Positions 32,771 to 37,466 of a stretch of 52,084 nt of DNA are shown here, in pieces; the stretch's first letter is position 1; every line of letters begins with the position of its first letter. The notes beneath the pieces were generated by a model. The model was not told where the DNA came from. It saw only the letters and a program-made list of their open reading frames with translations, and made no database searches. The position numbers were made by a program, and so were the translations under genes. Origin of the DNA: Peptococcaceae bacterium BRH_c4b (lineage in GTDB: Bacteria; Bacillota; Desulfotomaculia; Desulfotomaculales; Desulfocucumaceae); the NCBI GenBank assembly GCA_000961595.1, contig LADO01000016.1, positions 1 through 52,084 on the forward strand, written 5' to 3'.

Positions 32771-33754
32771 ATGAAAAAATATTTAACAGCTCTTCTCATA
32801 ATACTATCAGCCCTTGTTCTGGTTGTTACGGGTTGTGCAAAATCCCAACAGGAAAACCACAATAAATCTGCTACTAAAACTGATACCGAAACACTCATAG
32901 TTCAGGCTCCTCTGGCCCCCCCCAGTATTCCACTGGTTTCCATGATAGGCAAGCAGAATGTGCAAGTAATCTGGTACAAAAAGACAGAGGAAGCTATGTC
33001 CCGGATTATTGACGATAGTGTAGATGTTTCTATAATACCGGTTAATTCAATGGCCGTGCTTTACAACAAAGGGGTAAATATACAACTGGGGGCTGTAAGC
33101 ACCTGGGGCATACTTTATCTGGTTTCCGGCGACCCGCAGATTAATGACTGGAAAGATTTACAGGGTAAAACTGTAGCAGTTGGAGCCATGGGGTACAGCC
33201 CGGATCTTGTTTTCAGGGGACTTCTGGCTAATAAGGGATTAGCTAACGACGTCAAAATTATATACGGAACCTCCCCCGAGATAGCACAGATGCTGATTGC
33301 CAAGAAAATTAATCTTGCCGTTTTGCCTGAGCCGCTGCTTACTTCCGTTTTGTCTAAAAACAAGGACACGAGCATAATAATGAATCTGGAGCAGGAATGG
33401 ATGCATGCTTTTACTGAAGCCCGCGGCCTACCCCAGGCAGGACTGGCTGTAAGCAAGAGGCTGATTACAGAAAATCCTTCTGCCTGGCGAGGGTTCTACG
33501 ATGAGTATAATGAAAGCCTGCTGGCTTACGTTAATAATCCTGGAAAAATAGGTTCAGATGAGGAAAAGTTGCTTAACCTGCCTGCGGCAGTTATCAAAAA
33601 ATCACTTGGCCGCAGCAACCTGAAACTCCAAAGCGCCCAGGAGGCCAAGGACTCTGTAAACAGATACCTGGAGCAAATACTTCTAATAGATCCGAATGCA
33701 GTAGGTGGGAAAGTTCCCGGCCAAGAAAGTGATTTTTACCTTAATTATAAGTGA
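32771..33754 (+). CDS. NitT/TauT-type ABC transporter substrate-binding lipoprotein
   Basis: 327 residues. Signal peptide and lipobox VLVVTGC; the Cys becomes the lipid anchor. The periplasmic-binding-protein type 2 fold shows in GKQNVQVIWYKKTEEAMSRI, DVSIIPVNSMAVLYNKG, WKDLQGKTVAVGAMGYSPDL and KKINLAVLPEPLLTSVL. This matches the SsuA/TauA/ThiY-like family. The substrate is not readable. A YkoF-like thiamine-binding protein 3 kb away hints at a thiamine precursor, but that is only context. GAGAGGTAATCAGT precedes the ATG. The partner permease-ATPase gene starts 180 bp on, beyond nested repeats. Confidence 0.85.
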   Translation: MKKYLTALLIILSALVLVVTGCAKSQQENHNKSATKTDTETLIVQAPLAPPSIPLVSMIGKQNVQVIWYKKTEEAMSRIIDDSVDVSIIPVNSMAVLYNKGVNIQLGAVSTWGILYLVSGDPQINDWKDLQGKTVAVGAMGYSPDLVFRGLLANKGLANDVKIIYGTSPEIAQMLIAKKINLAVLPEPLLTSVLSKNKDTSIIMNLEQEWMHAFTEARGLPQAGLAVSKRLITENPSAWRGFYDEYNESLLAYVNNPGKIGSDEEKLLNLPAAVIKKSLGRSNLKLQSAQEAKDSVNRYLEQILLIDPNAVGGKVPGQESDFYLNYK

Positions 33755-33934: not shown

Positions 33935-35368
33935 ATGAAGGAAAATACTATGCCTTTTAAGCTATCGAAAACTATAATATCATTTCTGTTATTTACCCTG
34001 GCCTGGAAGATGGCTTCACTATCCACAAACAGCCTGGTATTGCCTCCTCCTGAAAAAGTCATTTATAGTTTTGCAACTATTTTAATATCAGAAGATTCCT
34101 GGAAAACAACCGCCGGCACGGCCCGAAGGGCGCTGGCCGGGCTGTTCACCGCAGTATTTTCGGGAGTTTTTGCAGCAATAATACTGTCTCCCCTGACCCC
34201 TTACATACGCCCGGTAGTAACTCTGCTGCAAAATATACCACTGGTTTCGTGGACCCTGCTGGCCATCGTCTGGTTCGGCTTCACGGACGCCAGTGTTTCT
34301 TTTGTAGTTTTCACCTCAACCTTTCCTATTATCTACCTCAATACCATATCAGGTCTTTCCGGTATTAGCCCCCATTTGCAGGAGATATCCAAGAACTTCA
34401 GGCTTCCACCTGTATTGAAGTGGTACGGCATTGAATTGGCATCGGTGGGTATCCACATCTCCGCCGGTATTTCGGTGGCCATTGCCATTATGTGGAAATC
34501 TGTTGTGATGGCCGAGCTTTTTGCATCAATAAAGGGAGTCGGCCTGGCCATGGAAACCAGCAGAACATACCTGCAAACAGACATGTTAATGGCCTGGACG
34601 CTTTTGCTGGTTATACTCGGGCTAACTAGCGATATGGCCTGGCGCTTTTTAATTAAAAGCGGCTTTTTCATGAAATTCTACCGTTTGGGATTGCGTTGGC
34701 TTCCGGTACAGCTTTCAGTCATTGAACAAAATTTCCTTGACAACAACGTTTTCAAAATCGATGAGATAACAAAAAGCTATTGGCAGGACGGGCATTCCAG
34801 CAAAATACTCGACAATATATACTTGTCTCTTAATCCCGGTGAGGCAGTATATCTATCCGGCTTATCAGGTTCGGGCAAGACCACCCTCCTGCGCATCATG
34901 GCGGGACTTGAGACTCCCGATAGCGGTGAAGTTAACCAGAATGGAAGGAAACCATGCCTTATGTTTCAGGAGCCCCGGCTAATTCCATGGTTTACTGCCG
35001 AGGAGAACATTATTATAGTGCTTCGGCGCCAAATGCCATACAAGGCAGCAGCTTCAAAAGCCCGTCATATGCTCAATCATTTAGAAATACCCCACGACTA
35101 TTATCCTCAACAACTTAGCGGAGGCATGCAAAAAGCAGTTTCACTGGCCAGAACGCTGGCTGTGCTGAGTGACGTTATACTGCTTGACGAACCCTTTTCC
35201 TCATCTGATCCCGAACAAAAAAAACGTATGATGCAGTTAATTACCAGGGAGATAAGACCGGCGGATTCTATACTGATTGTGTCACACCACAGCGAAGATA
35301 TGTCCTTACCTGCCCATAGGAAATTAAACCTCGAGGGAAACCCGGCCGCACTATACGATTGTTCCTAA
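33935..35368 (+). CDS. ABC transporter permease-ATPase fusion (NitT/TauT type)
   Basis: 477 residues in two parts. Residues ~1-250 are a BPD_transp_1 permease with about six helices and the EAA-like loop (LQEISKNFRLPPVLKWYGIE). Residues ~272-460 are an ABC ATPase: Walker A GLSGSGKTT, Q-loop MFQEPRLIPW, signature LSGGMQKAVSLAR, Walker B VILLDEPF and H-loop SHH. NitT/TauT systems normally encode these as two proteins (SsuC and SsuB). The fusion would dimerise to give the full pore and two ATP sites. The start at 33935 has a poor binding site (ACGAGATA); ATG 33950 is an alternative. It is the partner of the upstream lipoprotein. Confidence 0.88.
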   Translation: MKENTMPFKLSKTIISFLLFTLAWKMASLSTNSLVLPPPEKVIYSFATILISEDSWKTTAGTARRALAGLFTAVFSGVFAAIILSPLTPYIRPVVTLLQNIPLVSWTLLAIVWFGFTDASVSFVVFTSTFPIIYLNTISGLSGISPHLQEISKNFRLPPVLKWYGIELASVGIHISAGISVAIAIMWKSVVMAELFASIKGVGLAMETSRTYLQTDMLMAWTLLLVILGLTSDMAWRFLIKSGFFMKFYRLGLRWLPVQLSVIEQNFLDNNVFKIDEITKSYWQDGHSSKILDNIYLSLNPGEAVYLSGLSGSGKTTLLRIMAGLETPDSGEVNQNGRKPCLMFQEPRLIPWFTAEENIIIVLRRQMPYKAAASKARHMLNHLEIPHDYYPQQLSGGMQKAVSLARTLAVLSDVILLDEPFSSSDPEQKKRMMQLITREIRPADSILIVSHHSEDMSLPAHRKLNLEGNPAALYDCS

Positions 35369-35530: not shown

Positions 35531-35677
35531 ATGGCATACGGATATGGTGGAGAATACGGTGGGGGATGCGGTGGCGGATACGGGGGTTTTGACGGCAGTT
35601 TCATCCTTTTCCTGATCCTGATTCTGCTGGTTTTCTCCATGCCGTACTACGGTGGATACTGCGGCGCCGACAAATAA
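35531..35677 (+). CDS. Gly-rich one-helix small protein 1 (48 aa)
   Basis: ATG after AGGGGGGGTTGCGTA. A Gly/Tyr-rich start (MAYGYGGEYGGGCGGGYGG) is followed by FDGSFILFLILILLVFSMP, a single hydrophobic helix, and YYGGYCGADK. The same helix and YYGGxxGA end recur in the next two genes, giving a tandem family of three. The layout resembles YjcZ-type sporulation small proteins of Bacillus, but I cannot prove homology. Two Cys are unique to this copy. Confidence 0.75.
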   Translation: MAYGYGGEYGGGCGGGYGGFDGSFILFLILILLVFSMPYYGGYCGADK

Positions 35678-35966: not shown

Positions 35967-36026
35967 TGCGGTTTTATGATGACCGCCAATAGTAAACCTT
36001 TTATTAAAAGTGTAAGGAGGTTTATT

Positions 36027-36134
36027 ATGGGCGGATACCCCTATTTTGACGGCAGCTTCATTCTCTTCTTAATTCTGATCCTGTTAGTTTTCTCTATGCC
36101 TTATTACGGCGGATATTACGGTGCCGGAAAATAA
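36027..36134 (+). CDS. Gly-rich one-helix small protein 3 (35 aa)
   Basis: ATG after TAAGGAGGTTTATT. MGGYPYFDGSFILFLILILL then VFSMPYYGGYYGAGK; the shortest copy. It keeps DGSFILFLILILLVFSMPYY exactly as in copy 1, so copies 1 and 3 are closest. It lies 60 bp after copy 2 and before a terminator, so copies 2 and 3 are probably cotranscribed. Confidence 0.75.
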   Translation: MGGYPYFDGSFILFLILILLVFSMPYYGGYYGAGK

Positions 36135-36292: not shown

Positions 36293-36415
36293 TTAATCTG
36301 CCTGATTGGGAATATATGTCATGTCACAATAAGGGCAACTTAGGTTAAGCAACCACTCCGGCCTGGATGCGGAGTAGCTTATTTTTTCGCAATAAGGACA
36401 GAAAATCCTGTACAT
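36293..36415 (-). CDS. 40-residue double-CPYC zinc-ribbon protein
   Basis: ATG preceded by GAGGAGTTGTTGCTG, TAA at 36293-36295. The product starts MYRIFCPYCEKISYSASRPE and ends WLLNLSCPYCDMTYIPNQAD. Two CPYC knuckles (C6, C9, C27, C30) 17 residues apart should bind one zinc (or a redox metal). Nothing else is left of a larger enzyme, so it is a stand-alone ribbon, perhaps an adaptor. It has its own terminator and is encoded opposite to the Gly-rich genes. No family recognised. Confidence 0.7.
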   Translation of the reverse strand: MYRIFCPYCEKISYSASRPEWLLNLSCPYCDMTYIPNQAD

Positions 36416-36662
36416 CAGCAACAACTCCTCTCCGACAGATGAAGCCAATTAAACGATACTATGACCCGAACAACTCCGGAGCATTTTGATTCTTTAGCCG
36501 GCTTACAATAAATATGACAACTTTTTACCTTTCTTTACACTTTCAAAATCCGGCATACTGGTATTTATGACCTTTTTTAGGGAAGAATGTTGTAAAATTC
36601 CCCATTATAAAAACTGCGAATTACGACATAATAAATCCAATTGATAAAACAGGAGGTGAATA

Positions 36663-36902
36663 GTGTTGATAACTGCCGAAGTGTCCCTTTACCCTCAGAA
36701 GACCACTAATGCCAGCCAGATAATAAACAATTCCCTTGAGACACTGACCAAATTTAACCTTGATAGCAATGTGGGGCCTGTTTCCACAAGGTTGCAGGGA
36801 GCAGACGAAGAAGTGTGGAACGGCATAAAAATCCTTTTTGAGCAGGCCAAAAACCAGAGCGAGGTAAATATGGTGGTTACCGTATCGAATTCAGCTGAAT
36901 AA
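36663..36902 (+). CDS. YkoF-like thiamine/HMP-binding domain protein
   Basis: 79 residues, start after AACAGGAGGTGAATAGTG: MLITAEVSLYPQKTTNASQI then INNSLETLTKFNLDSNVGPV, STRLQGADEEVWNGIKIL. The EVSLYP strand, the NxGPxSTRLxG segment and the closing VNMVVTVSNSAE match one repeat of the YkoF thiamine-binding fold. B. subtilis YkoF has two repeats, so this one-domain form would have to dimerise. It could bind thiamine or hydroxymethylpyrimidine in the cytoplasm. No TPP riboswitch is visible upstream. Confidence 0.7.
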   Translation: MLITAEVSLYPQKTTNASQIINNSLETLTKFNLDSNVGPVSTRLQGADEEVWNGIKILFEQAKNQSEVNMVVTVSNSAE

Positions 36903-36964: not shown

Positions 36965-37047
36965 AAAGGAAAGGGGACACACCTCTTCAAAGGAAAGGGG
37001 ACACACCTCTCTTTGGAGCCGGGCTTTGAGGTCAGAGGAATGTCCCC
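36965..37047. repeat. GGGGACA...TGTCCCC hairpin repeat, copy 2, with 24-bp tandem duplication
   Basis: The full hairpin is 36997-37047 (GGGGACA, CCTCT ... AGAGG, TGTCCCC). The left end is preceded by an extra copy of itself: a 24-bp unit starting AAAGGAAAGGGGACACACCT occurs at 36965 and again at 36989. Confidence 0.65.
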
Positions 37048-37176: not shown

Positions 37177-37422
37177 CTACCGACCCAGCAGGGACGATAT
37201 TTTATTCTCCACCTCTCCCGCATTGGGGAAACGACCCTCCTTGTGTTTGGAGAAAATCAGTTGGTCGTTCAATACTACTTCAAACACGCCGCCGCTGGAA
37301 GGTGCCATAGAAATATCGTCGATGCCAAATTCCCTTTTAACAATATCGGCCAGACCGGCCGCTCTAGCCCTGTAACCTCAAGAGGTGCAGTAAGTAATAG
37401 AAAGTTTCCAATCCCCAGCCAT
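37177..37422 (-). CDS. selW: SelW/Rdx-family selenoprotein (UGA-encoded Sec in CxxU)
   Basis: ATG at 37422 lies 8 nt after AAAGGGG. The frame reads MAGDWKLSITYCTS, UGA (37378-37380), GYRARAAGLADIVKREFGI and on through APSSGGVFEVVLNDQLIFSK, EGRFPNAGEVENKI to a TAG at 37177 (81 residues if UGA is read as Sec). YCxxU/C-GYRARA, SSGGVFEV and KxEGRFP are the hallmarks of the SelW/Rdx thioredoxin-like fold, with Sec at the redox-active second position (C12, U15). A SECIS-like hairpin follows the UGA. It probably acts in thiol redox or peroxide handling. A gene finder that treats UGA as stop will miss it. Confidence 0.88.
37347..37361 (-). promoter_or_regulatory. Bacterial SECIS-like hairpin of selW
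   Basis: In the mRNA, CGGCC-GGUCU-GGCCG: a perfect 5-bp stem starting 17 nt after the UGA. Its GGUCU loop matches the SelB-binding loop of E. coli fdhF. It lies inside the coding region, as bacterial SECIS elements do. Confidence 0.8.
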
Positions 37423-37466
37423 TTTCTATTCCCCTTTCCATATTTCTTATTATCTCGCTAACAGAT

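Follow-up and report, generated by a model that had tools for sequence, protein, structure and literature searches.

We report that positions 37177 to 37422 of the window (the whole 52,084-nucleotide stretch analysed, from Peptococcaceae bacterium BRH_c4b) hold, with a probability that we put at about 97%, a functional SelW-like (Rdx/SelT-SelW-SelH) selenoprotein gene in which selenocysteine is inserted at the UGA of codon 15. The case was built from directly computed properties, namely the gene anatomy, the family assignment, the Sec machinery, and the conservation of the UGA, the reading frame and a downstream hairpin. The features of the locus, hereafter selW, are:

37177..37422, minus strand: SelW-like (Rdx family) selenoprotein gene, 81 codons including the predicted Sec, then a TAG stop
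37378..37380, minus strand: in-frame UGA, codon 15, predicted selenocysteine in a CxxU motif (YCTSU)
37431..37439, minus strand: Shine-Dalgarno-like GGAAAGGGG, 8 nt before the ATG, recognized from the sequence
37347..37361, minus strand: putative bacterial SECIS core CGGCC-GGUCU-GGCCG, 5-bp stem and 5-nt loop

The first-pass annotation had described an 81-codon SelW-like frame with a single in-frame TGA in a CxxU motif and a good start, giving no strand. It is the minus strand that carries the frame; there GGAAAGGGG was indeed found 8 nt before an ATG, and the Rdx signature is absent from the plus-strand translation of 37177..37422. The frame begins with this ATG, its sole internal TGA is codon 15 (37380..37378), and the readthrough product of minus-strand positions 37422..37177 is MAGDWKLSITYCTSUGYRARAAGLADIVKREFGIDDISMAPSSGGVFEVVLNDQLIFSKHKEGRFPNAGEVENKISSLLGR. 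The redox motif Y-C-T-S-U-G-Y occupies codons 11-17 with the TGA at the second redox position, giving the protein the N-terminal CxxC/CxxU motif of the Rdx / SelT-SelW-SelH family. The Pfam search that had been proposed for the readthrough product bore this out: with the TGA translated as Cys, the product scored 77.7 bits against PF10262 (Rdx; E 8.1e-22; curated cut-off 22.6 bits), residues 7-76 spanning profile positions 2-73/74. It also scored 66.2 bits against TIGR02174 CXXU_selWTH (cut-off 34.2), while its 86.9 bits against the NCBIfam equivalog NF041051 SelTWH_Campy fell just under the cut-off of 88, and membership of that equivalog is not claimed. A six-frame PF10262 search of the whole 3.62-Mb genome returned selW as the sole Rdx locus (69.8 bits, one TGA inside) at E = 7.3e-19, so the match is not a product of chance; Rdx proteins of solved structure, such as 2fa8 (E 2.2e-11), are likewise homologous to the product. 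Under the standard code the locus reads as 14 codons up to the TGA plus a 43-aa ORF that starts at an ATG further on. The suggestion that standard calling splits or misses the gene is therefore plausible, and such calling would probably miss it.

The genome carries the complete set of genes expected where a bacterial selenoprotein is made, selA, selB, selD and a tRNA-Sec(UCA):

selA: contig C6, E 2.7e-184, adjoining selB
selB: contig C6, E 8.6e-119, adjoining selA
selD: contig C21 (L019:1399-2436, minus strand), E 6.6e-117, with its own in-frame TGA
tRNA-Sec: contig C42, 67.5 bits, called by ARAGORN as tRNA-SeC with anticodon TCA

The absence of selA, selB or selC, which the first-pass annotation had named as grounds for abandoning the reading, is thereby excluded. 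The in-frame TGA of selD sits in MTRASGUAAK, and SelD is itself a predicted selenoprotein, so that the genome would hold at least two selenoprotein genes. Across the order, selA scored above its cut-off in 107 of 113 genomes, so that the Sec trait is more widespread there than SelW. One point counts against the reading: a genome of the same genus (G029, assembly 84% complete) keeps both a UGA-containing selW and a UGA-containing selD (loci L035 and L060), but no selA, selB or convincing tRNA-Sec was found in that assembly. Its best tRNA-Sec score, 48.5 bits, is close to the 48.8 bits that a match of lower rank reaches in the window genome, where the true tRNA-Sec has 67.5. Incompleteness of the assembly is the simplest reason and a likely one.

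Relatives with a true stop and an unconserved downstream region had also been raised as a possible objection. Rdx matches were found in 22 of the 113 genomes of the order, at 23 loci, and each of the 23 contains exactly one in-frame TGA; no Cys form occurs among them, and the TGA stands in the context [YF]C-x-x-*-G[YF] (the asterisk being the TGA) in every locus whose sequence was read. In a phylum-wide sample of 398 genomes, 31 had an Rdx match, nearly all with one TGA, the matches without a TGA being three (G453, G256 and a partial one in G284). More distant TGA forms were found in Planctomycetota, Myxococcota and Minicystis rosea, and homologues from Shinella (YCTQC) and Aenigmatarchaeota have Cys at the CxxU position. 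The UGA of selW is thus aligned with the Sec or Cys of its homologues and is followed by a conserved frame. Differences among orthologues 3′ of the TGA numbered 3073, 2175 and 5108 at the three codon positions, with third positions changing most, and the median dN/dS there was 0.22 (59 of 136 orthologue pairs having usable dS). Judged by these substitutions, the frame downstream of the TGA is under purifying selection, and together with the conserved TGA this excludes the objection of a true stop without downstream conservation in close relatives.

The hairpin with a GGUCU loop noted earlier was found at 37361..37347 as CGGCC-GGUCU-GGCCG; a 16-nt spacer separates it from the UGA, and its stem starts at the 17th nucleotide. 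As in known bSECIS elements, it lies immediately 3′ of the UGA and has a G in the apical loop. The fold of the 55-nt region taken alone is unexceptional (z -1.1, the minimum free energy favouring an overlapping 7-bp pairing); the case for the hairpin rests on comparison. A perfect stem (5/5 pairs) stands at the identical offset in every one of the 17 close orthologues, with 5-nt loops of GGUCU, AGUUU, AGUCU or AGGCU. In 5000 synonymous redraws, with codons taken from the family's own pool, a mean of 2.0 and a maximum of 8 of the 17 stems were perfect, and mean local hairpin energy was -3.7 kcal/mol (sd 0.49) as against -7.8 in the orthologues. In an alignment of 20 sequences that included planctomycete and myxobacterial ones, 100 of 100 cells were paired, three of the five pairs changed on both sides and 16 double-sided compensatory cells were counted, the sequences being related by descent and the counts therefore not independent events. 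The pair at columns 21:33, formed by two third codon positions, occurs as GC, AU, UA, CG and UG. The covariation score was 0.485, compared with 0.152 after shuffling and at most 0.125 with the partner slid, and the pattern reaches as far as Planctomycetota and Minicystis rosea. Fixed offset and covariation support the hairpin as a putative bSECIS.

The same evidence bears on two other explanations of the TGA. The locus could be a pseudogene in which a Cys codon (TGT or TGC) mutated to a TGA stop, or the TGA could be a sequencing error; the change from TGT or TGC is a single one, and a Cys form is known in other lineages, as in the YCTQC of Shinella. Yet one TGA recurs in all 23 Rdx loci from 22 separate genomes of the order, the frame 3′ of it bears the marks of purifying selection, a covarying hairpin follows at a fixed offset and the genome decodes Sec. 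The conservation of TGA, frame and hairpin contradicts both versions, which we reject as extremely unlikely. An open frame alone, on the other hand, does not identify the residue inserted, and the UGA could be read as some other amino acid, through general recoding (for example as Trp) or ordinary leaky termination. This is very unlikely given that the genome has the full Sec machinery, that the UGA falls exactly at the catalytic Cys/Sec position of the family and that the element downstream has bSECIS-like geometry.

For a selenoprotein gene, we infer both the actual insertion of Sec at codon 15 and the redox chemistry of the product. Ribosomes would reach the UGA at codon 15, where the hairpin 17 nt downstream would recruit SelB with Sec-tRNA(Sec); selenocysteine would then be inserted, and the 81 residues of the finished protein would include Cys12 and Sec15 as a C-x-x-U redox pair. 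In bacteria generally, Sec-tRNA(Sec) is delivered to the UGA by SelB bound to the SECIS (PMC1794560). The SelW-like product, probably a thiol/selenol oxidoreductase of small size and thioredoxin fold, would cycle through a selenenylsulfide and act in thiol-disulfide exchange.

The selW gene of the window genome stands alone: a cysteine-synthase-like gene found just upstream of selW in five relatives (L023, L025, L027, L028, L029) is not shared by it. Antisense frames that clustered in the neighbourhood analysis were set aside as mere shadows of selW. The search for a promoter upstream gave nothing convincing, the region having two sigma-70-like matches where 1.8 are expected, and two "terminator" matches at selW proved to be no terminator but the SECIS hairpin itself with T-poor sequence after it. 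Elsewhere in the vicinity, two adjoining 23-nt copies of AAAGGAAAGGGGACACACCTCTT/C occupy 36965..37011 and are absent from the rest of the window. Positions 36663..36902 (plus strand) encode a 79-aa YKOF/thiamine-binding-like protein (PF07615, 24 bits, cut-off 21), and 36293..36448 (minus strand) a 51-aa ORF with two CPYC motifs and no Pfam match. Paralogous tiny proteins of 48 and 52 aa, encoded at 35531..35677 and 35976..36134 (plus strand), share FDGSFILFLILILLVFSMPYYGGY; they have no Pfam match, and we take them to resemble YjcZ-type sporulation peptides. A 477-aa frame at 33935..35368 (plus strand) reads by eye as a fusion of an ABC-transporter permease with an ATPase and adjoins a gene at 32771..33754 that resembles, also by eye, one for a substrate-binding protein.

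Some relatives within the order, one of them (G028) in the same family as the window genome, encode a longer Rdx protein. The one at L040:1477-2367 (plus strand) has 296 aa; its Rdx domain, which contains the UGA, is N-terminal and is joined by a linker rich in Cys to a DUF2703 domain (PF10865, E 8.6e-38). The match region of L043 (minus strand) has the same arrangement, its DUF2703 recognized by eye, and that of L041 (minus strand) holds a longer Rdx protein whose DUF2703 part is cut in the sequence; frames of similar length occur in G123, G207, G269, G293 and G317. In the fusions the Rdx motif is YCVEUGF/Y and a SECIS-like hairpin lies at the same offset as in selW. None of the papers searched mentions a selenoprotein together with DUF2703, and these proteins are possibly an undescribed selenoprotein fusion.

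The apical loop of the E. coli fdhF bSECIS is GGUCU. The selW hairpin shares this loop and the position just downstream of the UGA, but differs in stem sequence and length, having a 5-bp stem 17 nt after the UGA. Eukaryotes insert Sec by means of a SECIS in the 3′ UTR, in contrast to the hairpin directly after the UGA here; eukaryotic selenoprotein W (e.g. 2npb) belongs to the same Rdx family with the same CxxU position and is distant in sequence from the selW product (E 0.047). A 2006 catalogue already contained SelW-like selenoproteins and listed Desulfotomaculum reducens by name (Zhang et al, 2006; PMC1794560), and a 2008 survey of the GOS marine metagenomes counted them, with the motif CxxU, among the selenoproteins of widest occurrence there (PMC2398784). 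D. reducens, evidently of the same Desulfotomaculum group as the organism studied here, likewise combines an Rdx protein, a CxxU motif and Sec with SelD in the genome. The family, the CxxU position and the presence in this group are thus already published, and selW is an ordinary family member that differs from the published bacterial ones only in species. Cys homologues of the family were also described as very scarce or absent in bacteria that use Sec (PMC1794560), which matches the lack of a Cys form among the Rdx loci of the order. From this lack, even though most Sec-decoding genomes there are without the gene altogether, one might suppose that Sec is indispensable to SelW for a specific anaerobic redox partner, a suggestion that we regard as rather doubtful; the Rdx-DUF2703 fusions of L040 and L043 may hint at the nature of the SelW partner.

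On its own, the selW locus makes the function of bacterial SelW-like proteins no more testable in a new way. Its reading as a selenoprotein gene corrects a probably missed gene and adds one Sec protein to the genome, and the comparative set provides a covariation-supported putative bSECIS for the SelW-like family.
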